Assembly (NCBI GenBank): GCA_017306015.1
Contig: JAFKJK010000019.1
Span: 1-64,000 of the forward strand
Direction of reading: 5' to 3'
Origin: Propionibacteriaceae bacterium
Lineage (GTDB): Bacteria; Actinomycetota; Actinomycetes; Propionibacteriales; Propionibacteriaceae
Length of the DNA stretch: 64,000 nucleotides
This document shows positions 40,295 through 56,687 of this stretch, one piece after another (the stretch's first letter is position 1; each line of letters starts with the position of its first letter). The notes under the pieces are model-generated. The model searched no databases. It worked only from the letters and a program-made list of their open reading frames with translations, and had not been told where the DNA came from. A program made the position numbers and the translations under genes.

Positions 40295-40737
40295 CTACGA
40301 GCGCCGACCACCCAGGCCGGCGTCCCGGGCGTGCGCGACGGCCTCGGCTCGGGTCGCCACCTGGAGCTTGGTGAACACGTTGTTGACGTGGTTGCGCACG
40401 GTCTTCGGCGACAGCACCCGGCGGCTGGCGATCTCGGTGTTGGTCAGGCCGCGCGCGACCAGGTCGAGGATCTCGCGCTCACGTTCGGTCAGTTCGGGGA
40501 ACGGGACGGCGGCCGTCGACGCTCCACCCCGGCGAAGTAGCCGAGCACCCGGCTGGCGATGCCCGAGCTGAACGCGATGCCGCCCCTGGAGACCGTGTCG
40601 AGTGCCTGCCTGATCTCCTCCCGATCGGCGCTCTTGAGCAGGTAGCCGCGGGCCCCGGCCCGCATCGCGGCGAACACCGAGTCGTCGCCGTCCAGCATCG
40701 TCAGCACCAGCACCGCCACGCCCGGTTGCTCCGCCAC
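40295..40737 (-). pseudogene. NarL/LuxR-type response regulator, truncated and frameshifted
   Basis: The minus strand encodes the end of a receiver domain (VLVLTMLDGDDSVFAAMRAGARGYLLKSADREEI, containing the conserved Thr-like and Lys positions) and, after a frameshift near 40510, an intact LuxR helix-turn-helix (LTEREREILDLVARGLTNTEIASRRVLSPKTVRNHV). The first ~55 receiver residues with the phosphorylated Asp are missing. The gene stops abruptly at 40737, where a second pseudogene begins. No cognate kinase remains, so it is a decayed two-component locus. Confidence 0.85.
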
Positions 40738-41328
40738 AACTGGTCCGGTTGTATCGGCAGGTGGGTCGGGTGCTCATCGAGCAGCCCGATCGGGCTCGGT
40801 GGGGCGACAGGGTTGTCGAACGGCTCTCTGCTGATCTGCGAGCCGAGCTCGACGGCGCTGGGCGGGTTCTCGGTTCGGCAACCTGAAGTACATGCGCTCC
40901 TTCGCTCGCGCGTGGGCGACGCTGGATCAGATCGGGCAACATCCTGTTGCCCAAGTGCCGTGGGGTTACATCACGGTCCTGCTCGACAAGCTGGATGACC
41001 CACCCTGGGCTGCGGGACTGGTACGCGTCCCAGTCGGTCACGCACGCTCCGCCATGTGGTGGTCGAACTGAAGGTCGGCAAGTTCAAGGAGGAGTACGCC
41101 GCCCAACTGGAGCTCTGTGTCCGTCTGGTCGAGGATCAGCTCCGCCGTCCCCGGCATCAAGCGACCGTGGGCCTGCTGTTGTGCACCGACAAGAACGACC
41201 GCGTCGTGCAGTACGTGCTGGCTACCAACTCCCAGCCGATCGCGGTCGCCAGCTACGACCTGCTCCCCGCCGCCGAGCGAGCAGCGCTACCGTCCGAGGC
41301 TGACCTTGGGCGGGCCCTCGACAGCTGA
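40738..41328 (+). pseudogene. YhcG/DUF1016-type PDDEXK nuclease, decayed
   Basis: Read across frames, the plus strand gives LVRLYRQVGRVLIEQ, VVERLSADLRAEL, then RFGNLKYMRSFARAW, VPWGYITVLLDKLDD and finally VVVELKVGKFKEEYAAQLE with the nuclease E-x-K. This is the DUF1016 N-terminal region and PDDEXK domain of YhcG-family proteins. At least one frameshift (near 40870), an internal deletion (near 41040) and a missing start show that it is dead. The last part is open from 41056 to 41328 but lacks the rest of the catalytic core. Confidence 0.85.
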
Positions 41329-41616
41329 GAGCCGATCGGTCTTCCTTCGAAAGCCTCGCTCGCCACCTCTGCGGCGCCTTGCGGAGTCGGGCCCTCGCGC
41401 CGATGTTGGCGCGCGGCCCGGGCGGAGGCGTTCGAGTTCGTTCGAATCGGTCGGGTGAACCTTCGCGACCCGCTCGTCGCAGGCAGGCTACGACGTGCTG
41501 CCAGTCGACTCCGTTGGTGGCGCGCGTGGAGGGGGAGGCCGGTGTCGCGACCCGTGCGGCCATTGGTGCGCGACGCCGCGCCTCCCGCCTCGCGTGTGTA
41601 TGGAGCGGCGCCGGCG

Positions 41617-42447
41617 ATGAGTGACGAGGCCGACACGCTCCCGTCACGACCCGGGGGCCTCATCCTGGAACACCACGTCACCGATCCCGAGCCGGTGGAC
41701 GACGGCGAGCTCATGTTCGCCAGCCGCCGACACAAGTACCTGGTCGCGATCCTCGCCAGGGAGGGTGAGGTCGTCTGGCCCTCGGCGTTCCTTGCCGCGA
41801 GGAGGCTCCGGTTCGAGACCTACCGGCGCTACCGCTGGCTCGACGCGTCCGATCAGGACGCCGACGGCGGCGAGAGCGACCAGTGGGACCCCAGGGCTAT
41901 CCAGGTCGGCGTCCTGCGCAGAACCGACAAGGTCGAGTTGATCGCCACCAGCCGACTGATCGTGCGCCGCACCTCGCGGGACCGGATTCCGGTGGAGTTC
42001 GAGTACCCCGAGGCGTTCCCGTCCGGGACCGCGAACGTAATGGACGCCGAGCTGTCCCGACTGGTCTCAGTGTCGCCCGACAAGCGTGAACGCGCGCTCG
42101 CGTCCATGGCGTGCCAACGGGCCATGCTCGGCTGGGCGCTCGCCAACGGCGTGAACCAGGCGTACGGCATCGTCGAGGACCATCTTGTGCGCCGGCTTGA
42201 GGCAACGGGGATTCCGCACCACGTCCTGACCGACCTCAAGCCTCTGCCGTCATTCGGGGACTCGATGAACCGTGTGATCCGGATCGATCCGCGTGAAATG
42301 GCTCGTGACGTGCTGCACATCAGAAGGGTTCCGTTCGCCACCTATCTGTTCTTCCGCGGGCTACAGAATCACCAAGGCAGTGGTGCGTCCGGACGCAGAC
42401 TCATGATTCGAACTGCTCAACGCGCCAACGCGATCGGCCTTGCATGA
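41617..42447 (+). CDS. LuxI/FeeM-like GNAT acyltransferase (putative signal synthase)
   Basis: A 276-residue protein with an acyl-homoserine-lactone-synthase-like core: RRLRFETYRRYRWLDA near the N-terminal helix, VELIATSRLIVRR in the place of the conserved substrate strand, and MDAELSRLVSVSP matching the LuxI E-x-SR motif. The later helix ACQRAMLGWALANGVNQAYGIVEDHLVRRLEATG is also family-like. Related N-acyl amino acid synthases share this fold, so the product may be an acylated amino acid or lactone. ATG 41617 has GGAG 11 bases upstream. The ThiF-like gene follows. The 288 bases before it hold nothing clear. Confidence 0.7.
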   Translation: MSDEADTLPSRPGGLILEHHVTDPEPVDDGELMFASRRHKYLVAILAREGEVVWPSAFLAARRLRFETYRRYRWLDASDQDADGGESDQWDPRAIQVGVLRRTDKVELIATSRLIVRRTSRDRIPVEFEYPEAFPSGTANVMDAELSRLVSVSPDKRERALASMACQRAMLGWALANGVNQAYGIVEDHLVRRLEATGIPHHVLTDLKPLPSFGDSMNRVIRIDPREMARDVLHIRRVPFATYLFFRGLQNHQGSGASGRRLMIRTAQRANAIGLA

Positions 42448-42553
42448 CTCGCTGGACCGCGACTAGTCACGAGTTCGATCGCGGGGCCGTTGAGGCGATC
42501 AAGGCGCCGATCAAAGAGCCTTTCGGCTCGCTTCGACCAGGAAGGGCATACGC

Positions 42554-43615
42554 ATGCTCGCGCCGCGACACACACTGAACCCGTTCACCTCAACTGACGA
42601 ATGGGAGCACTATGCCTCACTGGCACGGCGCGAGACGGTGGTGGGCGGAGTTCCGGACCTCTATGTCCGCAACTTGGGATTTCATAGTCTCCAGGAACAG
42701 CGACGACTTCAGGATGCGACTCTCGCGATCAGCGGTGGTGGAGGTGACGGCGGCGAGATCGCCCGCCTGGCCGTCCGTGCCGGAATCGGGTGTGGAAGGA
42801 GAGGTGAGATCAGGCTTGCCGACCCAGAGGCGTTCGCTCCGGAGAACATCAACCGACAGTCTGCATCGGCGGCGGACACGATCGGGGAGAACAAGGCCGT
42901 TGCGGTTGCCCGCCTGCTGCTCAGGATCAACCCTGCACTCAATGTCAAGGTCTATATGGATGGTGTGACACCTGAGAACATAGAAGACTTTGTGAAGGGA
43001 GCGGACGTCGTTCTCGATGAGGCCGCATTTGAAAGACACGAGCTGGCTGTCATGACCAATCGGGCTGCTCGACAGTACGAGGTCCCGGTTGTTCAGGGAA
43101 TGAATCTGGGATGGGCGGGAATCGTCACCACGATGCATCCCCACGGTGCCAAGTTTGAGCGGCAGTTGGGATTCGTCGATAGTGATGACCTCGCAAAGGT
43201 TGCTGAGTCAAGAGTTCCCCTTCGCCATTGGATTCCGTACATTCCGTTCAGGTACGGAGACTACGGCGTACTAGAGGCAACCTCGACGGGGATCAAGCCG
43301 GCACCCTCAATTGCTGAAGGCATGTCGGTGACCGCGGCCCGCACGGTGCTCGAAGTAAAACTGAATCTATGGAGCGGAGGCAATCGTCGCAAGTTGCCGA
43401 CCTACTTCAGGTGGGCGGAGGTGGTTGACCTCTACTCCGGACGCACCAAGCGGGTCCGTTATACCGACCTGAGCTACTACACCCATGGCGCACGAGCCTG
43501 GATCCGCGATCGGATGCTCCACCTGAACCCCGTGACAGACTTTGCGCTCCATCCGGACGTCGTCGGAACCGAGATCGACTGGCCGCCGTTCATGGAGGAA
43601 CCGCTAACCCCGTAG
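42554..43615 (+). CDS. ThiF/E1-like adenylyltransferase
   Basis: A 353-residue E1-superfamily protein. The nucleotide loop is ISGGGGDGGEIARLAVRAGIG and is followed by RLADPEAFAPENINRQ, which contains the conserved Arg finger and the N-x-NRQ motif, and by VKGADVVLDEA. E1-like enzymes adenylate a C-terminal carboxylate of a ubiquitin-like or peptide partner. No zinc CxxC pairs and no catalytic-Cys domain are evident, and no ubiquitin-like gene is adjacent. Codon usage (AGA/TAT/CTC mix) differs from neighbours, suggesting transfer. It probably works with the upstream acyltransferase. Confidence 0.78.
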   Translation: MLAPRHTLNPFTSTDEWEHYASLARRETVVGGVPDLYVRNLGFHSLQEQRRLQDATLAISGGGGDGGEIARLAVRAGIGCGRRGEIRLADPEAFAPENINRQSASAADTIGENKAVAVARLLLRINPALNVKVYMDGVTPENIEDFVKGADVVLDEAAFERHELAVMTNRAARQYEVPVVQGMNLGWAGIVTTMHPHGAKFERQLGFVDSDDLAKVAESRVPLRHWIPYIPFRYGDYGVLEATSTGIKPAPSIAEGMSVTAARTVLEVKLNLWSGGNRRKLPTYFRWAEVVDLYSGRTKRVRYTDLSYYTHGARAWIRDRMLHLNPVTDFALHPDVVGTEIDWPPFMEEPLTP

Positions 43616-43733
43616 AGGTTCGAGTCATCGCCCGACGGCTCAGGCATAGTTCGAACGAAGTCGAACGACTATCGCGCCGGAGTTGCCGTGCTACTGGCGT
43701 TCGAAACCGTTCGCATCTGACAGGATTCCGTCC

Positions 43734-46700
43734 ATGAGGGTGGGGGTAAGCCTCCGGTCGGAATGGGCGGCAAGGCTCGATGAGGCCCGGCGCCGGCGGC
43801 ACTTGTCGCTGAGTGTTGCGGCGAAACTGGCGGGGGTCGGAAAGACGACCGCGCACGGTTGGTTGACCGGTGATCACTTCCCGACGCCGGCACTGCGTCC
43901 GAGCTACCTGAAGCTGGTTGCTGCGCTCGGCCTTTCGGATGAGGTTCCGGACGGGATCTGGGACGAGAGTGCGGAACTCGGCGGCGGGGCGCGGACCGGC
44001 TCCGCGCCCTATGTCGGTTTGCGCGCGTTCGGAGTCGCTGACCGCGAGTTGTTCCACGGACGGCGAGACCAGGTGGCCGCGCTCACCGCAGCGGTGCAGG
44101 ACCTGCGCCGGACTGCCGGCGGCGGAGTACTGGCGTTGCTCGGGCCGTCCGGCAGCGGGAAGTCGTCGCTGCTGGCCGCTGGCCTCATCGCCCGGGAATG
44201 CGTGGACGGCGCCCTGGCCGGGTGGGGGATCGCGCAACTCTCGGCCGCGACCCTCGCCGACAGTTCACCGGTCGATGCTGAGCTGGCTGTGGTGGACCAG
44301 TTCGAGGAGGTCTTCCGGCTCGGCGAGCCAGCCTGCCAGGACGCGCTGAGCCGTCTGGTCGAGCTGTCGCGGACCATGGTCGTCCTGATCGCGATGGGCT
44401 CGGACGTCTTCGGCGTGGCCAGCGAGCATCCTGAACTGATCGACGCACTCTCCCGGCCCGTGCTGGTCGCCCCGATGACGCGCGAGGAGTTGGCGGAGGC
44501 GGTTACCGCACCGGCGGAACTGATGGGCACCCGCGTCGAACCTGAGTTGGTCGATCTCGTCCGCAACGAGTTGGCGCCGCGCTCGACCGACTCGATCCCG
44601 GTGGATGTGCTGCCGTTGCTGTCCACCGCACTGCTGCAGACCTGGGAATACGGACGCGGCCGGAACATGACCGTCGCCGACTATCTCGCCGCCGGTGGCG
44701 TCGCACACGCGCTCGACAGTCAGGCCGAGGGTGTCTACACCGGGCTGGACGCCGACGGCCAGGCGAGCGTCGCCAAAGTGTTCCTGCAGCTGGTCCGGGT
44801 CACCGAGTCGGGTGCGTTCACCCGTCCACTGTCGCTGTCGACCCTGAGCGAGGACGAGGCCCGGCTGCTGCGTCCTTTCGTGGACGCCCGGCTGCTGACC
44901 AGCGGCGACACCTGGGTGCGGATCAGCCACGAGTCCCTGCTCACCCACTGGAAGCGGCTGGACAGCTGGATCCAGGATCGCAGCGCCGACCTGCGCGACC
45001 TTGACCGACTCCGTACCGCCACCACGATCTGGCGGGACGCGTCCCGTAGCGACGACCTCTTGCTTCCCGTCGAGCGGCTCGGCACGTTCAGCGACTGGCC
45101 CGCCGACCCGGTGCGGGCACCGCTGCTCGGCCCCGGCGAACGCGACTACATCGAGGCGAGCCGTGCGCACTTCACCAACGCCGTCGCCAAGGAACGGCGG
45201 GGCCGTCGGATCGCGCTCGGGTTGCTCTCCGTCGCGGCCGCACTCGCGATTGTCGCGGGAGGGCTGTTCGTGCGCTCGGAGGGGTTCCGCACGGACGCGG
45301 TCGCGGCCAAGCTCGACGCCGAGTCGCGCCAGGTCGCGATCGCCGCCCGATCGGTGCGCGGCCAGGACGCCAACCAGGAAGCCCAGATGGCGCTGGTCGC
45401 GAACCGGCTCAGCAACACTCTCGAGGCTCGTTCGGCACTGTTGGACGCGGCCTCCGACGACGTCCCGATCCGGTGGCTCGGCAAGCCGTCGGCAGTAGTC
45501 GCGGTGAATCCCGCGCAGGACCTGGCCGTCCGCGCCGACGGAGCCGGCCAGGTCACGATGTGGCGTGGCGACGAGGTGGCGACGAGTCCGGGACGTACCT
45601 TCGCGGTCGCCGAGGCGACCAGTCCGCAGTACGGGGTCGCGGTGACTCGAGTAGCCGGACGCGACCTGCTCGCGGTCGGCGGTGCCAGTTCGGCCGGGCT
45701 GTGGGACGTCACCGGCGACCCGGTCAGGCTCGCCGACTTCTCCCGCGACCAGGTGACGACCTATGCCGCGGCGTTCGCCGCCGACGGCAACGCTCTCGCC
45801 TTCGGCTACTCCGACGGCGCGGTCAGGCTCATCAGGCTGGACGCCGCAGGCAGGCCCGCCGGATCCCAGGATCTCCAGGTCAACCCGTCCGGCACCTCGT
45901 CACCGGCGGCCGTCAGCGCTGTCGCGTTCGACCCGGCCGGCCGCCTGTGGGTCGGCGGCGTCCCGGACGTGATCAAGCGCTGGCAGACCGGGCCTCAGGC
46001 CGCGCGGTCGTTGCCCGATCTCGCCTTCCGCTACGGTTCAGCGCCGGTCCGCGCGGTCTCCCTCGCGATCTCGCCCGACGGCACCCAGCTCGCCGCGGCC
46101 ACGATCGCCAACGCGGTGCTGCGCTGGCACCTCCACGGCGAGGACGTGACCTCCGCGCCCCCGCTCACCGGCTTCGGCAGCTGGGTGAACGCGGTCTCGT
46201 GGTCCAGCGACGGCGCCCGGCTCCTGGCCGGGTCGTCCGACCAGACCGTCCAGGTGTTTGCGGCCGACTCCGACACGGCAGCCACCACCCTCCACACCCC
46301 GGCGCTGGTCACGGGTGCCGCTGCGTTCGGCAGTCGCACCCTTGCCGTCGGCTCGGACGGCACCCTTCGGGTCTGGACGTCCCCCAGCCCGATCGTCCGC
46401 GCCTCGGGCGCGTCGGTGTACAACCTCAGTACGGATGCGACCGGCGCGAAATGGCTTGCCGGCGGCACCCTCGCCGATGGCGCGATGCTGTGGCGGCTCA
46501 GCGGGCGCGACCGCGAGCCGGTGCCGCTGACCTACCCGAAGCTGTCCGGCGCCCGCTCTGCCGCTGTCGCGGTCGCTCCGGACGGCAGCTACCTGGTCGC
46601 GGCCAGCAAGGCTGGGGAAGTGGTCGTCTGGCCGCTCACCGGTTCCGGAGCAGGCGCGCCAACGGTGAGCGACTTCGGACTCGGCTACATCAGCTGCGTG

Positions 46701-47408
46701 ACCATCTCGCCGGACTCCGGGCTGGTCGCCGTCATGGGCTACGGCGGGAAGAAGGCCTCCATCCTGAGGGCCGGGCAGGCCGGCGCCCTCACCCCGCTCA
46801 GCCAGGTCGACGCTGTCGACGCTCAGATGGGGGTCTTCACCGCCGACTCCAAGGCACTGGTGATCGCCCTTGCCGCGAACAGTGTCGACGTGTGGAGCGG
46901 AGTCGACCAGGCCTCGCCGGCCAAGGCCTCCACGATCACCGGATTCGACACCGCCACGATCGCCATCACCGCGGCACCCGCCGCGCAGCAGATCGCGGTC
47001 GGTGAGGACAGTGGCCACGTCTCGGTCTGGACGCTCGACGACCCGGCCAAGCCGGCGAAGACTCACGACTTCGGCGACTCCCACGGCTCTGCCTACGCCG
47101 TCACCTTCAGCACGGACGGCAACACTCTCGCCATGGCCAGCGGCGACCAGAAGATCTGGGGCTGGAACCTCGCCACCTCGACCACCGCTTTCACCCTCGA
47201 TGGCGACCTCGACCGCCCGTGGGACGTCCGCTACCTCGCCGGCGGAGACACCCTCGTGGCCTCGGGCAACAACGGCCGCGTCCGGACCTGGCCCAGCTCC
47301 GTCGCCCAGGCCCACGACCAGCTCTGCGCACTCCGTGGCGACGAGCTCACCGACCGCGAGTGGGGCCAGTACCTGCCCGGCATCGACCGCACCGACCCCT
47401 GCGGCTGA
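43734..47408 (+). CDS. HTH-STAND NTPase with WD40-like propeller
   Basis: A 1224-residue signalling protein. Domains in order: XRE-like helix-turn-helix (~8-66), a STAND P-loop NTPase (~92-480) with Walker A GPSGSGKSS (137-145) and Walker B AVVDQFEEVF (185-194), one membrane helix (~488-508, IALGLLSVAAALAIVAGGLF), and ~650 residues of WD40-like repeats (GSWVNAVSWSSDGARLLAGSSDQ and similar). STAND proteins act as ATP-gated sensors, some in phage defence. The membrane helix places the propeller outside the membrane, if the helix truly spans. CAGGAT lies 7 bases before the ATG, again suggesting a leaderless start. Confidence 0.85.
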   Translation: MRVGVSLRSEWAARLDEARRRRHLSLSVAAKLAGVGKTTAHGWLTGDHFPTPALRPSYLKLVAALGLSDEVPDGIWDESAELGGGARTGSAPYVGLRAFGVADRELFHGRRDQVAALTAAVQDLRRTAGGGVLALLGPSGSGKSSLLAAGLIARECVDGALAGWGIAQLSAATLADSSPVDAELAVVDQFEEVFRLGEPACQDALSRLVELSRTMVVLIAMGSDVFGVASEHPELIDALSRPVLVAPMTREELAEAVTAPAELMGTRVEPELVDLVRNELAPRSTDSIPVDVLPLLSTALLQTWEYGRGRNMTVADYLAAGGVAHALDSQAEGVYTGLDADGQASVAKVFLQLVRVTESGAFTRPLSLSTLSEDEARLLRPFVDARLLTSGDTWVRISHESLLTHWKRLDSWIQDRSADLRDLDRLRTATTIWRDASRSDDLLLPVERLGTFSDWPADPVRAPLLGPGERDYIEASRAHFTNAVAKERRGRRIALGLLSVAAALAIVAGGLFVRSEGFRTDAVAAKLDAESRQVAIAARSVRGQDANQEAQMALVANRLSNTLEARSALLDAASDDVPIRWLGKPSAVVAVNPAQDLAVRADGAGQVTMWRGDEVATSPGRTFAVAEATSPQYGVAVTRVAGRDLLAVGGASSAGLWDVTGDPVRLADFSRDQVTTYAAAFAADGNALAFGYSDGAVRLIRLDAAGRPAGSQDLQVNPSGTSSPAAVSAVAFDPAGRLWVGGVPDVIKRWQTGPQAARSLPDLAFRYGSAPVRAVSLAISPDGTQLAAATIANAVLRWHLHGEDVTSAPPLTGFGSWVNAVSWSSDGARLLAGSSDQTVQVFAADSDTAATTLHTPALVTGAAAFGSRTLAVGSDGTLRVWTSPSPIVRASGASVYNLSTDATGAKWLAGGTLADGAMLWRLSGRDREPVPLTYPKLSGARSAAVAVAPDGSYLVAASKAGEVVVWPLTGSGAGAPTVSDFGLGYISCVTISPDSGLVAVMGYGGKKASILRAGQAGALTPLSQVDAVDAQMGVFTADSKALVIALAANSVDVWSGVDQASPAKASTITGFDTATIAITAAPAAQQIAVGEDSGHVSVWTLDDPAKPAKTHDFGDSHGSAYAVTFSTDGNTLAMASGDQKIWGWNLATSTTAFTLDGDLDRPWDVRYLAGGDTLVASGNNGRVRTWPSSVAQAHDQLCALRGDELTDREWGQYLPGIDRTDPCG

Positions 47409-47592: not shown

Positions 47593-48609
47593 TCAGCCGA
47601 CGGGAGGCGCCGTGCTCGAACGGACGACGAGACTGGTGGCGAGCTTGATCCTCGTCGACGTTGCGGGGTGCCCGGCCGACATGTCCTGGAGCGTCCTCAC
47701 CGCAAGTCGTCCCATGTCGCTCAGCGGCTGGGCGATGGTGGTGAGCGCCGGTGTCATGAGTTCGGCACCGGGCGAGTTGTCGAATCCGATGACCGAGATG
47801 TCGGCCGGAACCCGCACGCCATGGGTCTCGAACGCTCGGATGGCGCCGAGCGCCATCCGGTCACTGAGCGCGAAGACCGCGGTCGGGGGGTCGGGCAGCC
47901 GCATGATCTCCTCGGCCGCGTCGAACCCCGACCCAAAGGTGTAGCGGCCGTCGAAGATCAGGTTGTCGTTGCCAGCGCTCACGCCGGCTTCCTCGAGCGC
48001 TGCTCGGTAGCCGTGCATGCGTTCGATCCCTGGCAGGAACTCGGACAACCCGTTGATGAGCGCAATCCGGCGGTGACCGAGCTCGAGCAGGTGTTCGGTT
48101 GCGAGTTTTCCGCCCTCCCAGTTGGTCGCACTGATCGTGACGTCGGCGTCCTTGGAGACCACATACGGGTCGATGGCGATGACCGGGATGCCGCGACGTC
48201 GCGCCACCTCGAAGACCGGCCCGCGCGCCCGATAGACCATGGTCACGATGCCGATCGATCGGGGAGCCAGGTGTGTGGCCTCCCACTCGTTCGGCGACCG
48301 CGAGGGCTCGACGGTCTCCGATTCGATGTGGGGCACGATGTCGATGCCGCGGCGGTCGCCCTCCTCGACGAGGCCCCGAAGCACCTCCACCCCGTACGAC
48401 GGGTCGATCGCGTCGGTGATCGCCGTGATAGTCGATCGGGCAGTGACCGGGTCGAGGCGCTTGGCCGGGAAGTAGCCCAGCGCGGCAGCGGCGTCCAGGA
48501 CGGCGCTTCGCGTCGCGTCCGCGATGTCGCCGCGTCCGTTGACGGCCTTGGACGCGGTGGCTTCCGAGACTCCAGCGCGCGCGGCGACGTCCTTGAGTGT
48601 GACCTTCAC
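47593..48609 (-). CDS. LacI family transcriptional regulator of the polyol-type operon
   Basis: A 338-residue repressor: N-terminal TLKDVAARAGVSEATASKAVNGRGD helix-turn-helix, then RSAVLDAAAALGYFPAKRL, and a ligand-binding domain with RIALINGLSEFLPGIERMHGY and ISVIGFDNSPGAEL. GTG 48609 is the canonical N-terminus (M-K-V-T-L-K-D) with GGGAG upstream; an extended start at 48645 is unlikely. It is divergent from the dehydrogenase-transketolase-ABC operon, with two CGAAA...TTTCG palindromes between. Confidence 0.9.
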   Translation of the reverse strand: MKVTLKDVAARAGVSEATASKAVNGRGDIADATRSAVLDAAAALGYFPAKRLDPVTARSTITAITDAIDPSYGVEVLRGLVEEGDRRGIDIVPHIESETVEPSRSPNEWEATHLAPRSIGIVTMVYRARGPVFEVARRRGIPVIAIDPYVVSKDADVTISATNWEGGKLATEHLLELGHRRIALINGLSEFLPGIERMHGYRAALEEAGVSAGNDNLIFDGRYTFGSGFDAAEEIMRLPDPPTAVFALSDRMALGAIRAFETHGVRVPADISVIGFDNSPGAELMTPALTTIAQPLSDMGRLAVRTLQDMSAGHPATSTRIKLATSLVVRSSTAPPVG

Positions 48610-48629
48610 CTTGAACAGCTCCCTTCTCT

Positions 48630-48642
48630 CGAAATAGTTTCG
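48630..48642. promoter_or_regulatory. LacI-type operator near the regulator start
   Basis: CGAAATAGTTTCG has inverted arms CGAAA/TTTCG around a 3-base centre and lies about 20 bases upstream of the lacI-type start codon, so the regulator probably represses itself. Confidence 0.6.
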
Positions 48643-48803
48643 CACAGTCCTGCGGACGTCAAGGCCGCGATCCTCGACTCAATTGGCTAGCTGTCGGCCA
48701 TCCATCGCGCTCAGCGTGCAGAACCCGCGAAATCTCCTGCCAACAGACCGTTGACAACGCGCCGGACGACCCCTACTCTTTCGGCGCCTTCAGGGCAGGT
48801 CAA

Positions 48804-48817
48804 TCGAAAGATTTCGA
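48804..48817. promoter_or_regulatory. LacI-type operator upstream of the catabolic operon
   Basis: TCGAAA-GA-TTTCGA has 6-base inverted arms and shares the CGAAA/TTTCG arms with the site at 48630, 175 bp away. It lies about 104 bases before the first dehydrogenase start, a position suited to control of the operon. Confidence 0.65.
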
Positions 48818-48920
48818 CCACCCAAAGGTGTGAGGTACCGGTCTCCACTGTCGGGGCACCTGCGAACGGTGACACGGCCTCACGTACGGCTTTCAACGAT
48901 GAAGGAGCGCGAGTGACGCC

Positions 48921-49928
48921 ATGAGGTCACTGTATTTCGCCCGCGAGGGCACCATGGAACTCTGGGATGTCGACGTCCCCTCTCCCGGAGCAGGTCAGGT
49001 GAGGATCCGGACCGCGTTCGCCTCGCTGTGTGCCACGGACGTGCACCAGGTGACGATGGGCGTCCTGGGAGCCAAGCCGCCGATGGCGCTGGGTCACGAG
49101 ACGAGCGGCACTGTGGATGCCCTGGGTCCCGGCACGGAGAGCAGTGGGCTGCATGTCGGCGACAAGGTGACCGCCTTTCCCGTGTCGGTGTGCGGACAGT
49201 GCCTTCACTGCAAGCGCGGTCAGCCGCAGTACTGCGAGAACGCCGCCCCCTTCGGTGGCTTCAGCGAGTACTACGTCACCTCGGCGAACAACGTCTTCGC
49301 GCTCCCGGACGACGCCGACCTGAAGTCCTTCACCATCACCGAGCCGACCGTGTGTGCGATCCGGGCGATGGACCTGGCTCCGATCCAGCACGGCCAGACG
49401 GTGGCGATCTCGGGGATCGGAGGAATCGGCGCGATCCTGCTGAACGCAATCCTGCTCTCGGGTGCTGCGAAGGTGACCGTCATCGAGCCCGTGGCGGCGA
49501 AGCGGGCGCTCGCCCTGGAGCTTGGCGCCGCCTACGCGATCGATCCGGCCACGGAGGACGTGGTGGCACGAGCCGATGCGATCACTGCCGGCCTCGGCTT
49601 CGACGTGGTGTTCGAGGCTTCGGGCTCGCCTCGCGCGGCGAAGCCCGCGCTGGACATCGTCGGACGGTGTGGGCGCGTCGTCTACTTCGCCGTCTATCCG
49701 CCGGACTTCGAGCTGCCGGTCAACCTCTACGACCTGTACTCCAAGGAGGCCGCGATCCTGACGGTCTTCACCAATCCCGACCTCTTCCCGCGCGCGATCA
49801 ACCTGCTGCCGCGGCTGGCCCTCGATCGCATCATCGGGCCGGTCGTCCCCCTGAGCCGGGCGATGGAGGGCATCGAGCTGTTCCACTCGGGCGAGTACCC
49901 CAAGATCGTCCTCGACTGCACGGCCTAG
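48921..49928 (+). CDS. Zinc-dependent medium-chain alcohol dehydrogenase
   Basis: A 335-residue MDR enzyme. The catalytic zinc ligands lie in SLCATDVHQ (Cys) and ALGHETSG (His-Glu), the structural-zinc cysteines in VCGQCLHCKRGQPQYC, and the NAD loop is AISGIGGIGAILL. It most resembles polyol/sugar-alcohol or threonine dehydrogenase-type members. First gene of the LacI-controlled operon. The 229-base gap after it has no clear gene. Confidence 0.92.
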   Translation: MRSLYFAREGTMELWDVDVPSPGAGQVRIRTAFASLCATDVHQVTMGVLGAKPPMALGHETSGTVDALGPGTESSGLHVGDKVTAFPVSVCGQCLHCKRGQPQYCENAAPFGGFSEYYVTSANNVFALPDDADLKSFTITEPTVCAIRAMDLAPIQHGQTVAISGIGGIGAILLNAILLSGAAKVTVIEPVAAKRALALELGAAYAIDPATEDVVARADAITAGLGFDVVFEASGSPRAAKPALDIVGRCGRVVYFAVYPPDFELPVNLYDLYSKEAAILTVFTNPDLFPRAINLLPRLALDRIIGPVVPLSRAMEGIELFHSGEYPKIVLDCTA

Positions 49929-50157
49929 GCCCGGCGATGGAGGAGAAGCCCCAGGAGTCGGGCACGGCAGCCCGCTCCCACCGCATCACCGAAGAGTCCC
50001 GCTCGAGTCTCGTCGGAGAGCTGTGCGGCATCTATGGCCAGGTCAGCCCGGGCCTGGCCGGAATCCGCCCCGCCGTCGGCAGGGGAGGAGCTCTCGGGGC
50101 GAGGCAAGTGAGTTACGGGCCTTGCGGCCGCCCACCAACTAGACGAGGAGGAATTTC

Positions 50158-51033
50158 ATGACAACACAGACCGAGCCGGTCGCTGTCCGGCCGAGTGTTG
50201 CGGAGCTTGAGGAACTCGCATTCGAGTTGCGCAAGAAGCTGCTGCACCTGTGCGGCACCTACGAGGGCGCCGTGCACATCGGTGGGGATCTGTCCTCGGC
50301 GGACATCCTGACCGCACTGTTCAGCTATGGCATGAAGGTCGACCCGACCGACATCGCCAATCCGCAGCGCGACCGGTTCGTCCTGAGCAAGGGCCACGCG
50401 GCGGTGTGCATGTACATCGCGATGGCGATCCGCGGGTTCTTCTCCTACGACGAGATCGTCGCAACGTACGGGCAGCTCGACAGCGCCTACGGCATGCACC
50501 CGTGCAAGGTGCAGCTGCCGGGCGTCGAGTGCTCGTCGGGATCACTCGGCCACGGGCTTCCGATCGCAGTGGGAATGGCGCTCAGCGCCCGCCACCGTGG
50601 CGACGGCCACCGGGTGTTCTGCCTGCTCGGCGACGGTGAGACCGGAGAAGGATCGGTGTGGGAGGCCGTGATGGCTGCCCGCAGCAACGAACTCGGCAAC
50701 GTGGTCGCGTTCGTCGATCGCAATCGTCAGCTGATGACCAGCTTCGCCGAGGACCGCATCGTCTTCGAGCCCTACCCGGACAAGTGGCGGGCCTTCGGCT
50801 GGAACGTGGTGGAGATCGACGGCCACTCCATGGGCGAGCTGGTCGCGGCGATCGACGCGCTGCCGGCCTCCGACAGCGACCGTCCCACTGTCGTCATCTG
50901 CGAGACCGTGAAGGGCAAGGGAGTCGACTTCATGGAACGCAATCTCGCCTGGCACGCCGGATCCCTCGGCGCAGCCGATCTCGAGCGCGCGATGGCCGCC
51001 CTCGACGCGTCCCGTGAGAAGGAGGAGAACTGA
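50158..51033 (+). CDS. Transketolase, N-terminal (thiamine diphosphate-binding) subunit
   Basis: A 291-residue split transketolase subunit. It has the ThDP/Mg motif GDGETGEGSVWEAVMAARSNELGN, the conserved His-rich HIGGDLSSADIL and SKGHAA segments, and GMHPCKVQLPGVECSSGSLGHGL. Together with the next gene it forms one heteromeric transketolase. GAGGAGGAA precedes the ATG. Split transketolases often work in specialised sugar pathways and not the core pentose phosphate route. Confidence 0.93.
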   Translation: MTTQTEPVAVRPSVAELEELAFELRKKLLHLCGTYEGAVHIGGDLSSADILTALFSYGMKVDPTDIANPQRDRFVLSKGHAAVCMYIAMAIRGFFSYDEIVATYGQLDSAYGMHPCKVQLPGVECSSGSLGHGLPIAVGMALSARHRGDGHRVFCLLGDGETGEGSVWEAVMAARSNELGNVVAFVDRNRQLMTSFAEDRIVFEPYPDKWRAFGWNVVEIDGHSMGELVAAIDALPASDSDRPTVVICETVKGKGVDFMERNLAWHAGSLGAADLERAMAALDASREKEEN

Positions 51034-51992
51034 TGCCCGTTACGTTCACTTTCGGGGAGATGCTGTCTGCCCGGTCCGTCATCGGCGCCACGCTCGCCGA
51101 GCTCGGCGACGACTACGAGAACCTGTGGGTGCTCACTCCGGACATCGGCGCGACCCTCGTCGAGTTCCGCGACAAGTTCCCTGACCGCTTCCTCGACGTC
51201 GGCCTGGCCGAACAGGCCTGCGTGGGTGTCGCCGCCGGCCTCGCCTACGACGGCAACATCCCCGTCGTCTCCGGAATGCTGCCCTTCCTGAGCATGCGTG
51301 CCCTGGAACAGGTCCGCACCGATGCCTGCTACCCCAACCTCCCGGTCAAGATCATCGGCACCCACGGTGGTTTGGTCGGCAACGGCGGGTCCACCCACTA
51401 CGCGGTCGAAGACCTCGCCCTGATGTGCGCTCTGACGAACATGACCGTCACCTCGATCGGCGACCCCCTCATGGTGGGTGAGATCCTCCGGCAGTCCATG
51501 ACGATGCAGGGCCCGCTCTACATCCGGCTGGCAGTCGGGAAGAAGGACAAGGTGCTCTACCAGCCAGGTGAGCACGAGATCCGCATCGGCAAGGGCATCG
51601 TCGCAGCCGACGGCACGGACGCCACGATCTTCACTCACGGGACGACCGTCGCGCAGGCGCTGGACGCCGCCGAGGAGCTCGCGAAGGAGGGACGCTCGGT
51701 ACGCGTCGTCGACATGTTCACGCTGAAGCCCATCGACGAGGAGCTCGTCCTCCGCTGCGCGAACGAGACCGACGGACGGTTCGTGGTCCTCGAGGATCAC
51801 CTTGCCTACGGCGGACTCGCGACTCGAATCGCTGACGTCCTCGCCGACCACGGCGTCCGCCTGACCGCCTTCGAGCGCCTGGGCATTCCGCAGGTGTATG
51901 CAGGGTTCGGCAACGACGAAGAGCTGCGTGACAAGCACGGCTACGGACTGGAAGCGACGATCGCGGCGACGCGGCGGGTCATCGCCGGCTGA
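51033..51992 (+). CDS. Transketolase, C-terminal subunit
   Basis: A 319-residue subunit with the pyrimidine-binding and C-terminal transketolase domains: FLDVGLAEQACVGVAAGLAYDGN carries the Glu that activates the thiamine cofactor, and GGSTHYAVEDLALM and VVDMFTLKPIDEE are also typical. The ATG overlaps the preceding stop by one base (TGATG), so the two subunits are translationally coupled. Confidence 0.93.
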   Translation: MPVTFTFGEMLSARSVIGATLAELGDDYENLWVLTPDIGATLVEFRDKFPDRFLDVGLAEQACVGVAAGLAYDGNIPVVSGMLPFLSMRALEQVRTDACYPNLPVKIIGTHGGLVGNGGSTHYAVEDLALMCALTNMTVTSIGDPLMVGEILRQSMTMQGPLYIRLAVGKKDKVLYQPGEHEIRIGKGIVAADGTDATIFTHGTTVAQALDAAEELAKEGRSVRVVDMFTLKPIDEELVLRCANETDGRFVVLEDHLAYGGLATRIADVLADHGVRLTAFERLGIPQVYAGFGNDEELRDKHGYGLEATIAATRRVIAG

Positions 51993-52033
51993 GCCCGACT
52001 TCCTACACTAGAGAACGCTCAACGGAGAGATGC

Positions 52034-53092
52034 ATGAGAACAGTCGCTGTTACCAGAGTCGGTAGCCTGCGGGATCCCAACGAGAACACGCGAGGCCGGA
52101 TCGGCGTCGTGGACTTCCCGGAGCAGCCGCTCGGGCCCGAGGACGTGCGCATCCGGGTCGCCTACGCCGCCATCTGCGGATCCGATCCGCACCTGGCCGA
52201 AGGCTTCTTCGGGACGGAGGTGCCCATCGGCCTCGGCCACGAGCTCTCCGGCGTGGTCGAGGCGCTCGGCGAGCGCGCCCACCGCAACGGATTGCGGGTG
52301 GGGGACCGAGTCGCGGGCAACTTCCTTCGCTTCTGCGGCACCTGTCCGCCGTGCCGTGAAGGCAGGCAGCAGTTCTGTGAGCACATCCAGGAGTACAACC
52401 GGCCGGGCATGTCCGAGACCATCACCTGGCACGAGTCCCAGGTCTACCGGCTGCCCGCCTCGGTCTCTCTCCTGCAGGGCTGCCTGCTCGAGCCGACGTC
52501 CGTCGCGGTGCGGATCGCAGACAAGACGCACGTCAAAGTTGGAGACCGGGTCGTGATCTGCGGCGGTGGCCCGATCGGTCAGCTGTGCCTGCAGGTGCTC
52601 AAGATGTACGGCGCGACCTCGCTCACGATGATCGAGCCGATCCCTGAGCGTCGCCAGATGGCGTTGCGCCACGGGGCGGACTACGTCATCGACCCGCTCT
52701 CCGAGGATCAGGACGCGCGCGCGTCCGAGATCACCGGCGGTGCCGGCTACGACGTGGTCGTTGACGCCTCCGGGTCTCCCCGCGCGGTGAAGGGCCTGCT
52801 CGACATCGCGGCCAGCGGCGCCACCGTGGTCTACGGCGCGATGTACCCACAGGAGTTCGAGATGCCCCTGAACCTCTCGGACTATCTCTATCTCAAGGAG
52901 CTGACCCTCACGGGTGTCTTCGTCTCGCCCTACGCCTTCCCGCGTGCGCTGCGGATCCTGCCGCTCCTCCAGCTCGACGAGCTGACCAGGGCCGTCTTCG
53001 ATCTGGACGACGCGTCCGAAGCGTTCGCCGTCCACGTCAGCGGCAAGTACCCCAAGGTCGTCATCCGCTGCAATCACATCGTGAACGAGTAG
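52034..53092 (+). CDS. Zinc-dependent alcohol dehydrogenase, second copy
   Basis: A 352-residue MDR enzyme with catalytic zinc sites in AICGSDPHLAEG and GLGHELSG, structural-zinc cysteines in FCGTCPPCREGRQQFC, and VICGGGPIGQLCLQV as NAD loop. Its C-terminus (AMYPQEFEMPLNLSDYLYLKELTLTGV) is like that of the first dehydrogenase in this operon, so the two are paralogues that may act on consecutive hydroxyl groups. Confidence 0.92.
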   Translation: MRTVAVTRVGSLRDPNENTRGRIGVVDFPEQPLGPEDVRIRVAYAAICGSDPHLAEGFFGTEVPIGLGHELSGVVEALGERAHRNGLRVGDRVAGNFLRFCGTCPPCREGRQQFCEHIQEYNRPGMSETITWHESQVYRLPASVSLLQGCLLEPTSVAVRIADKTHVKVGDRVVICGGGPIGQLCLQVLKMYGATSLTMIEPIPERRQMALRHGADYVIDPLSEDQDARASEITGGAGYDVVVDASGSPRAVKGLLDIAASGATVVYGAMYPQEFEMPLNLSDYLYLKELTLTGVFVSPYAFPRALRILPLLQLDELTRAVFDLDDASEAFAVHVSGKYPKVVIRCNHIVNE

Positions 53093-53094
53093 CC

Positions 53095-54627
<1,533 letters not shown>

Positions 54628-54628
54628 G

Positions 54629-55642
54629 ATGACCATGGACCAGCGGGCGAAGACAACCAGCGCCGGGCCGGCCGCGATCGTCGCGGCGCCTCCCCGGGCT
54701 CACCAGCTCGACATCGGACGGATCCTCCGGCTGAGCGGCACAGGCATTGGCCTGATCCTGCTCATCGCCATCTTCGGAACCCTGCGACCCTCGGTCTTCC
54801 TCACCGTGGGGAACTTCGTCAACATCCTCGAACAGATCTCGATCCTCGCCATCATCGCCGCGGTGCAGACCGTCGTCATGGTGGTCGGAGACCTGGACAT
54901 GTCCGTCGGATCGACCGCCTCCCTGGGTGGGGCGCTGACCGCCGTGCTGCTGATGTCCGGATGGAGCATTCCGTCGGCGGTGCTGCTGGCGCTCTGTGTC
55001 GGCGCTGGAATCGGAGCCATGAACGGCGCGCTCGTGGCGTACGTGAAATTGTCGGCCTTCATCGCGACCCTGGCTTCGATGACCAGCGTCACCGGCCTGG
55101 CGTTCATCGTGACGAATGGCGCCAATATCTTCGGATTCACGAAAGACTTCCTGCCCCTGGGTCAGGGCCGATTCCTCGGCGTACCGATACCGGTGTACAT
55201 CGCCAGCGCCGTCTCGCTGCTCATCTGGGCGCTTCTCCGGTTCACCACGATCGGACGGCGCTGGCGGGCGGTCGGTGGAAATGCCGAAGTCGCCCGCCTC
55301 AGCGGGATCCGCGTCGACCGCGTCCGGTTCATCGCCTTCGTGATCGCCGGGCTGGGTGCGTCGCTGGCGGGGATCATGCTGGTCAGCCGCCTCGCCAGCG
55401 CGACCGCTCAAGCCGGTGACTCCCAGATGATGCTCTCCATCGCCGCCGTCTTCCTCGGGATGACCATGTCGAGCCACGGCGGGGCGAACATCGGCGGCAC
55501 GATCGTCGGAGTCGCCATTCTCGGAGTCCTCACGAACGGTCTCAACATCGTCGGGGTCAACACCTACGTACAGCAGTTGCTCACCGGCGCCATCATCGTC
55601 GCCGCAGTTGCACTATCGCGGCTCGGAAAAAACCGCCGCTGA
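54629..55642 (+). CDS. Sugar ABC transporter permease (RbsC type)
   Basis: A 337-residue permease with about eight to ten helices. Family signature DLDMSVGSTASLGG lies in the second-third helix region and IGGTIVGVAILGVLTNGLNIVG near the end. The ATG follows the ATPase stop by one base. Earlier in-frame starts lie inside the ATPase gene and are rejected. Confidence 0.94.
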   Translation: MTMDQRAKTTSAGPAAIVAAPPRAHQLDIGRILRLSGTGIGLILLIAIFGTLRPSVFLTVGNFVNILEQISILAIIAAVQTVVMVVGDLDMSVGSTASLGGALTAVLLMSGWSIPSAVLLALCVGAGIGAMNGALVAYVKLSAFIATLASMTSVTGLAFIVTNGANIFGFTKDFLPLGQGRFLGVPIPVYIASAVSLLIWALLRFTTIGRRWRAVGGNAEVARLSGIRVDRVRFIAFVIAGLGASLAGIMLVSRLASATAQAGDSQMMLSIAAVFLGMTMSSHGGANIGGTIVGVAILGVLTNGLNIVGVNTYVQQLLTGAIIVAAVALSRLGKNRR

Positions 55643-55706
55643 CAGCACAGGAATACACATCACCGTCGGCGAGTGGCCGACACACTTCAAGGAAGAGGTA
55701 CATGGT

Positions 55707-56687
55707 ATGGCAAAGAATCGGATCCTCGGCCTCGCTATGACTGGCCTGGCCGTGGCACTGGCTCTGGGCGGCTGTTCGAACCCCGGGCAGGGTGCCGGTG
55801 CCGCCCCGAGCGGGGGCGGCGGGACGAAGAACATCGCGCTGATCACCGGCTCGTACGGAACGCCGGCCGCGAAGGCGGCCATGGACATGCTGATCAAGAA
55901 GGGCGCTGCCGAGGGCTGGACGATCAAGCTCCAGGACACAGCCTTCGACTACAACAAGATCAACTCGCTCATGCAGGACGCAGCTGCGCAGAAGGTCGAC
56001 GCGATCATCGTGGGCTACACGACGCCGGAGCTCATCACCCTCGGCATGCAGTCCGCGACGGACGCGGGGGTGCCGGTCTTCGGACTCGACGCCGGCGTCC
56101 AGCCGGTCGACCAGGTCACGCTCAACGTCACCAGCGACAATCCGTGGTTCGGGAAGACCAGCGCGCAGGCTCTGATCACCCTCATGGGCGGTAACGGCAA
56201 GGGCAAGCGCGTCCTCATGCTCGAGCACGATCCCCACCCGGGCGTGAAGCTTCGCACCGAGGCCGCCCGCGAGGCGTTCCAGGCAGCCGGCGTCGACATG
56301 GTGAACCAGGTCCAGATCAAGGACCCCACCTCGGGACGCCAGGAGGCGATGAACGACGTTGCCGACTACGTGACGGCACATCCCGGTGGCCTCGACGGCA
56401 TCTGGGCCGGCTGGGACGACGTGGCGATGGGTGCTGCGCTCGCCCTGAAGAACGCCAACTCGGACATCCCTGTGACCGGTGTCGACGGCACCGACGAGGG
56501 GATCGCAGCGATCAAGTCCGGCACGAACAGCCTGAAGGCGACCGTGTGGCAGGACTGGGGCACCATCACCGACAAGCTCGTCGCCGGAATGGGCGACTAC
56601 TTCGCCGGCAAGAAGCTGCCCGCCAACCTCGAGAAGGTCGAGGGCAAGCTCATCACTGCGGAGAACGTCTCCCAGTTCAGCAAGTGA
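55707..56687 (+). CDS. Sugar-binding lipoprotein (RbsB type)
   Basis: A 326-residue periplasmic-binding-protein-like lipoprotein. Signal peptide ends at LALGGCSNPG with the lipobox Cys near residue 23. The mature part has the type I fold pattern NIALITGSYGTPAAKAAMDM, VDAIIVGYTTPELI and TGVDGTDEGIAAIKSG. It supplies ligand to the RbsA/RbsC importer. The ligand is probably a pentose, tetrose or polyol that feeds the dehydrogenases and transketolase. Confidence 0.93.
   Translation: MAKNRILGLAMTGLAVALALGGCSNPGQGAGAAPSGGGGTKNIALITGSYGTPAAKAAMDMLIKKGAAEGWTIKLQDTAFDYNKINSLMQDAAAQKVDAIIVGYTTPELITLGMQSATDAGVPVFGLDAGVQPVDQVTLNVTSDNPWFGKTSAQALITLMGGNGKGKRVLMLEHDPHPGVKLRTEAAREAFQAAGVDMVNQVQIKDPTSGRQEAMNDVADYVTAHPGGLDGIWAGWDDVAMGAALALKNANSDIPVTGVDGTDEGIAAIKSGTNSLKATVWQDWGTITDKLVAGMGDYFAGKKLPANLEKVEGKLITAENVSQFSK

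Follow-up and report, generated by a model that had tools for sequence, protein, structure and literature searches.

Gene content and surroundings of the locus

Within the window analysed here, a stretch of 64,000 nucleotides, three intact genes follow one another on the plus strand (41617-42447, 42554-43615 and 43737-47408). The original prediction had described them as a LuxI-like acyltransferase, an E1-like enzyme and an HTH-STAND-WD40 protein in a row, and a check of the open reading frames confirmed both their coordinates and their families. The host genome is actinobacterial, measures 4.24 Mb and carries the locus on its contig 16. A GH32 gene and remnants of dead genes lie 5' of the trio; a LacI regulator gene followed by a sugar operon lies 3' of it. 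Two broken genes were seen on the 5' side: a NarL-type response regulator on the minus strand (40295-41041), its receiver (40492-40737) and GerE parts being in separate frames, and, on the plus strand (41056-41328), a YhcG_C PDDEXK nuclease remnant of 90 aa (Pfam, E=1e-17) that lacks the N-terminal half. A relative genome, G437, matches positions 47610-56107 at 80-83% DNA identity. Synteny ends at 47610, and the DNA to the left in G437 has no match to the window between 41 and 47.6 kb; the trio therefore sits in a variable region.

The first gene (41617-42447, plus strand; an alternative GTG start is found at 41455) encodes a LuxI/FeeM-type acyltransferase resembling N-acyl amino acid synthases. 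As a single sequence, the protein matches Pfam weakly (Autoind_synth, E=0.094), and its NCBIfam match is exosort_acyl (8e-6). A single-protein search recovered no relatives and was redone via the E1 profile A2. A profile built from 31 members of the family matches the AHL synthases TofI, BjaI, RpaI, LasI and EsaI as well as the N-acyl-amino-acid synthase FeeM, with E values from 3e-13 (TofI) to 3e-8. The AlphaFold2 model (pLDDT 79) aligns over 172-189 residues with LasI (Z 18.1), FeeM (Z 17.7) and TofI (Z 17.6); RpaI likewise scores 17-18, against 15 at most for ordinary GNATs. Profile and model scores thus place the protein inside the LuxI/FeeM fold, not outside it as the original prediction had allowed for. 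It is divergent (at most about 30% identical to the relatives found) and keeps the charged residues of the family (Arg, E-x-D-x-x-D, Arg, E-x-S-R) as R65, E86, D88, D91, R113, E145, S147 and R148.

The second gene (42554-43615, plus strand) starts after an intergenic gap of 106 bp and encodes a ThiF/E1-like adenylating enzyme, a candidate cyclase of the TyzB/OxzB/TrzS type by its ThiF match, fold and ATP-site residues. It consists of a single ThiF domain (Pfam, E=2e-27), and the folds closest to its model are AclA (9egb), MoeB and ThiF (Z 26-28). The ATP-site residues G61, G63, G64, D90, N98, N100, R101, K114 and D155 are kept, among them the Asp of the ThiF motif. Residues 79-83 (42788-42802) form a CGRRG insertion before the second Rossmann strand that is absent from all aligned relatives. 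None of the relatives found exceeds 41% identity to the enzyme. No close relative was found in 197 genomes of the family, where only ordinary ThiF/MoeB proteins were detected, and a plasmid search returned only distant ThiF proteins. The base use of this gene had been said to differ from that of its neighbours, and its GC3 of 0.67 indeed lies below the 0.79-0.90 measured for eight genes around it, which suggests a recent arrival.

The third gene (43737-47408, plus strand) encodes an HTH_31-nSTAND1 NTPase-TM-WD40 protein, a candidate local regulator or sensor. Pfam assigns nSTAND1 (E=4e-78), WD40 repeats and HTH_31, and one strong hydrophobic segment spans residues 494-512 of the ATG form, in agreement with the predicted membrane-bound STAND protein with its own DNA-binding domain. 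The HTH domain is encoded by 43737-44080. The ATG at 43737, preceded by AGGA, is a likelier start than the TTG at 43683. Homologues occur in 13 other genomes of the genus (14 of 30 including the host) independently of the acyltransferase-E1 pair, and a paralogue of 45% identity is encoded on contig 12 of the same genome. The STAND gene is therefore not inherited as a unit with the pair. A conserved three-gene unit was likewise rejected: other pairs have no STAND homologue in their vicinity, and the pair is missing from the rest of the genus.

The upstream regions of the acyltransferase and STAND genes share a motif, GTTCGA-N3-CGTTCG, a direct repeat of GTTCGA with a 10-bp period. Three putative operator copies match it exactly: GTTCGAGTTCGTTCG upstream of the acyltransferase gene (41430-41444, plus strand), GTTCGACTTCGTTCG upstream of the STAND gene (43652-43666, minus strand) and GTTCGAAACCGTTCG 24-38 bp before the STAND ATG (43699-43713, plus strand). 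In a pattern search of the 4.24-Mb genome, in which a control pattern gave one match, the exact motif was found four times; three matches flank the trio, and the fourth lies inside open reading frames. Within one mismatch, the window holds seven matches against 0.74 expected. The region of the first copy recurs as a 90% inverted copy at 43650-43670 and as a 76% direct copy at 43696-43724. In a motif-free test, between 3 of 1476 and 11 of 1480 random segment pairs were as similar as the two upstream regions (about the top 0.2-0.7%). As these three sites also served to define the motif, its sharing is suggestive rather than conclusive. An actinobacterial LexA box was rejected on reading the sites, the GTTCGA half-sites being direct and not inverted. 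HTH_31/XRE proteins usually bind palindromes rather than direct repeats of 10-bp period. Upstream of the STAND homologues of the genus the motif is absent. Given this absence and the frequency of STAND genes in a genus without the pair, the STAND protein could be a chance neighbour.

Conservation of the acyltransferase-E1 pair and its relation to acyl-oxazolone enzymes

The original prediction named conservation of the acyltransferase-E1 pair across genomes among its checks. The 83 nearest E1 relatives, 80 from the E1-profile search and three fetched separately, were examined. An acyltransferase gene without a nitroreductase gene lies close to 42 of them, usually directly upstream of E1; the others have both an acyltransferase and a nitroreductase (13), a nitroreductase only (21) or neither (7). 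Rather than occurring independently elsewhere, the two genes thus co-occur in other genomes, and their pairing is conserved across phyla. Within the phylum, the three closest relatives (L003-L005) have an acyltransferase gene beside or near E1, and such an open reading frame adjoins E1 in most of the loci L065-L096. None of the tree set's 41 other ThiF loci matched the acyltransferase profile within flanks of 1.5 kb. The desaturase-less group includes Leucobacter, Herbiconiux, Saccharibacteria, Acetobacterium and others. A quick version of the E1 tree places the window E1, on a long branch, inside a set of 32 desaturase-less E1s (SH-aLRT 96). No close relative of the pair was found among the 197 family genomes surveyed, those of the host genus included. 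In Acetobacterium dehalogenans (L065, 4181-9902), two pairs stand in tandem, the first acyltransferase region being split over several open reading frames.

Among characterised systems, the pair is closest to the acyl-oxazolone enzymes OxzAB, TyzA/TyzB and TrzAS and to the thalassotalic-acid locus of Thalassotalea. As such pairs are known from oxazolone biosynthesis, the combination is less unusual than had been claimed. The nearest characterised relatives N-acylate an amino acid, which is then adenylated and cyclised (PMC10404671, PMC12856293, PMC12479983). In the tyrazolone system of M. tuberculosis (Rv2336, Rv2338c and Rv2337c), TyzA N-acylates L-amino acids, the ThiF homologue TyzB uses ATP to form the oxazolone ring, and desaturation by TyzC follows (PMC10404671). 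As in the window, an N-acyltransferase of the FeeM/AHL-synthase fold and a ThiF-type cyclase are encoded together in this system; compared by gene content, however, the flavin-dependent desaturase TyzC has no counterpart in the window, and no STAND neighbour is described at the tyz locus (PMC10404671). The tryptazolone enzymes TrzA and TrzS (Rv1356c and Rv1355c) also combine an acyltransferase with a ThiF-type cyclase, lie next to signalling (c-di-GMP) genes and share the conserved ATP-site Asp with the window, but TrzS is a cyclase-desaturase fusion (PMC12856293) while the window E1 has a single domain. Against the NCBIfam TrzS model (Rv1355c family, PRK07877), the window E1 scores 59 bits, under the cut-off of 476 bits. 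The NasY-ThiF-nitroreductase clusters for thalassotalic acids and stieleriacines have the acyltransferase directly upstream of ThiF, as in the window, yet carry a nitroreductase that the window pair lacks (PMC12479983). One of the loci recovered here in the order acyltransferase, E1, nitroreductase (L134) belongs to Thalassotalea sp. PP2-459, a published thalassotalic-acid producer (PMC12479983).

No desaturase of the nitroreductase family lies beside, or is fused to, the window pair. A desaturase encoded elsewhere in the genome was rejected, as its only two nitroreductases are short and on other contigs. Related loci of Gram-positive bacteria and Saccharibacteria also have no nitroreductase gene within about 6 kb. 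TrzS cyclises before it desaturates, a D217A substitution abolishes cyclisation, and a cyclised, non-oxidised product accumulates under limiting O2 (PMC12856293); a saturated ring is therefore chemically attainable. Oxazolones do not survive acid or alcohol (PMC12856293). By analogy, the window pair, which has no gene for an FDO-type desaturase in its vicinity, probably makes a saturated ring.

Signalling genes beside desaturase-less pairs

The neighbourhoods of pairs with and without a linked desaturase differ. A signal-transduction gene (histidine kinase, response regulator, LuxR, GGDEF/EAL/HD-GYP or MCP) lies within 2 kb of 28 of the 42 desaturase-less pairs, against none of the 34 desaturase-linked loci (Fisher 1e-10, with related loci counted individually, the signal-gene models having been seeded from the desaturase-less loci, which are mutually related). 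Among 121 neighbours of desaturase-less pairs, Pfam identified GGDEF (12), HATPase_c (9), Response_reg (7), EAL (5) and GerE (4), none of which is among the top 25 families of 128 desaturase-linked neighbours. The pairs of the Herbiconiux type and of Acetobacterium have no signalling gene close by. The split between desaturase and signalling is not absolute either, since the trz locus of M. tuberculosis has a desaturase and c-di-GMP genes together (PMC12856293). Around desaturase-linked E1 genes (L093-L144), PEP-CTERM, polysaccharide-export and MacB/FtsX-type genes are often seen. In two Gammaproteobacteria, a gene for a methyl-accepting chemotaxis protein adjoins the pair (L096, 3176-5173; L109, 3182-5050).

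In Saccharibacteria, the order is acyltransferase, E1 and histidine kinase, with response regulators on the opposite side. The kinase gene was observed directly 3' of the pair in L067 (6998-9238), L078 (6987-9095), L082 (6946-9144) and L091 (6949-9135). LuxI homologues adjoining sensory kinases were reported in CPR genomes, where AHL synthesis was proposed and the main text does not mention ThiF (PMC7567580). The Saccharibacteria pairs found here precede a histidine kinase as well, but, in contrast to that account, have an E1 gene between synthase and kinase. In the window, the signalling-gene position next to the pair, held in Saccharibacteria by the kinase, is occupied by the STAND gene. The LuxI fold and signature residues of the window acyltransferase are also common to the LuxI-type AHL synthases of Actinomycetota; those luxI genes were described as solitary, with no partner regulator and no mention of ThiF (PMC13136126), whereas the window gene has an E1 partner. 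Because the E1 partner is conserved, chemistry other than SAM-dependent homoserine lactone formation is more likely.

Proposed function and alternative readings

We consider it somewhat probable that the two enzymes jointly synthesise an N-acyl-amino-acid oxazolone, or a ring like it, and that this synthase is linked to the local STAND regulator or sensor. The acyltransferase would move an acyl group from acyl-CoA or acyl-ACP onto the amino group of an amino acid, and E1 would use ATP to adenylate the carboxylate left free. The acyl-amide oxygen would then attack, giving an oxazolone (azlactone) derived from the N-acyl amino acid, or a similar ring, which may be a signal or effector under local regulation. 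The membrane-anchored HTH-STAND-WD40 protein would bind the GTTCGA tandem sites before its own gene and the acyltransferase gene and adjust their expression, possibly triggered by sensing the product. The original idea that the genes make and sense a small molecule is thus supported in part: the making is well supported by the conservation of the pair across phyla and its oxazolone homology; the evidence for sensing is circumstantial, namely the shared motif and the receptor-type neighbours elsewhere.

Alternatively, the N-acyl-amino-acid oxazolone or lipid made by the pair could be a secondary metabolite of the ordinary kind or a lipid of the membrane, with the STAND gene an unrelated neighbour in a variable region. 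We regard this as unlikely but deserving serious consideration. The characterised relatives Oxz, Tyz and Trz all belong to metabolite pathways, the STAND family is spread through the genus regardless of the pair and has a paralogue in the host, and the locus borders the region in which G437 differs. On the other hand, a rare tandem motif is common to the upstream regions of the acyltransferase and STAND genes, and receptor genes adjoin desaturase-less pairs in several lineages. It is less probable still that E1 activates the N-acyl amino acid for a bond or ring of another type (lactam, thiolactone, phosphoramidate or ester), or that its substrate is a small peptide, as with the ThiF-like enzymes of RiPP pathways. 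ThiF-like enzymes do form varied bonds (PMC12150305, PMC12250964), and the solved fold closest to E1 is AclA of Tenacibaculum; the conserved partner, however, is a LuxI/FeeM acyltransferase, as in oxazolone systems, and, small open reading frames lying outside any systematic search, no precursor-peptide gene was noticed.

An E1 fold might also belong to a ubiquitin-like or phage-defence conjugation system, and STAND proteins can act as defence sensors. We judge such a role very improbable. PADLOC matches of the E1-E2 kind are weak (E ~1e-11) and do not extend beyond the generic ThiF core. For the acyltransferase PADLOC finds nothing, and its match to the STAND protein is weak and limited to 20 residues of the nucleotide-binding stretch. 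The conserved partner of E1 is an acyltransferase and not an E2, and genes for an E2, a JAB or a ubiquitin-like protein were not seen next to E1, which speaks against the conjugate originally suggested as a product. Phage defence was accordingly rejected, its matches being generic to the E1 fold and partner genes being absent.

If the two-enzyme synthase reading is extended beyond the window, the desaturase-less LuxI/FeeM-E1 pair might make cyclised N-acyl amino acids that constitute a hitherto overlooked class of signals between cells, across Actinomycetota, Saccharibacteria, Bacillota and Gammaproteobacteria. We put this forward tentatively, as a possibility about which doubt prevails. Its receptors would be interchangeable: histidine kinases, LuxR proteins, c-di-GMP enzymes, chemoreceptors and, here, a one-component HTH-STAND-WD40 sensor binding GTTCGA tandem sites. 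A LuxI-type signal with a STAND protein as its receptor or regulator has, to our knowledge, no precedent.

What acyl-oxazolones do physiologically has been called a major unresolved question (PMC12856293), and the locus ties this chemistry to signalling genes. Pairs split into those that have a desaturase but no neighbouring signalling gene and those that have no desaturase but often adjoin a receptor gene, which provides a direct and testable link between chemistry and signalling. Moreover, given the E1 gene between synthase and kinase in the Saccharibacteria loci, the CPR LuxI homologues beside sensory kinases, for which AHL synthesis was proposed (PMC7567580), may produce another molecule.
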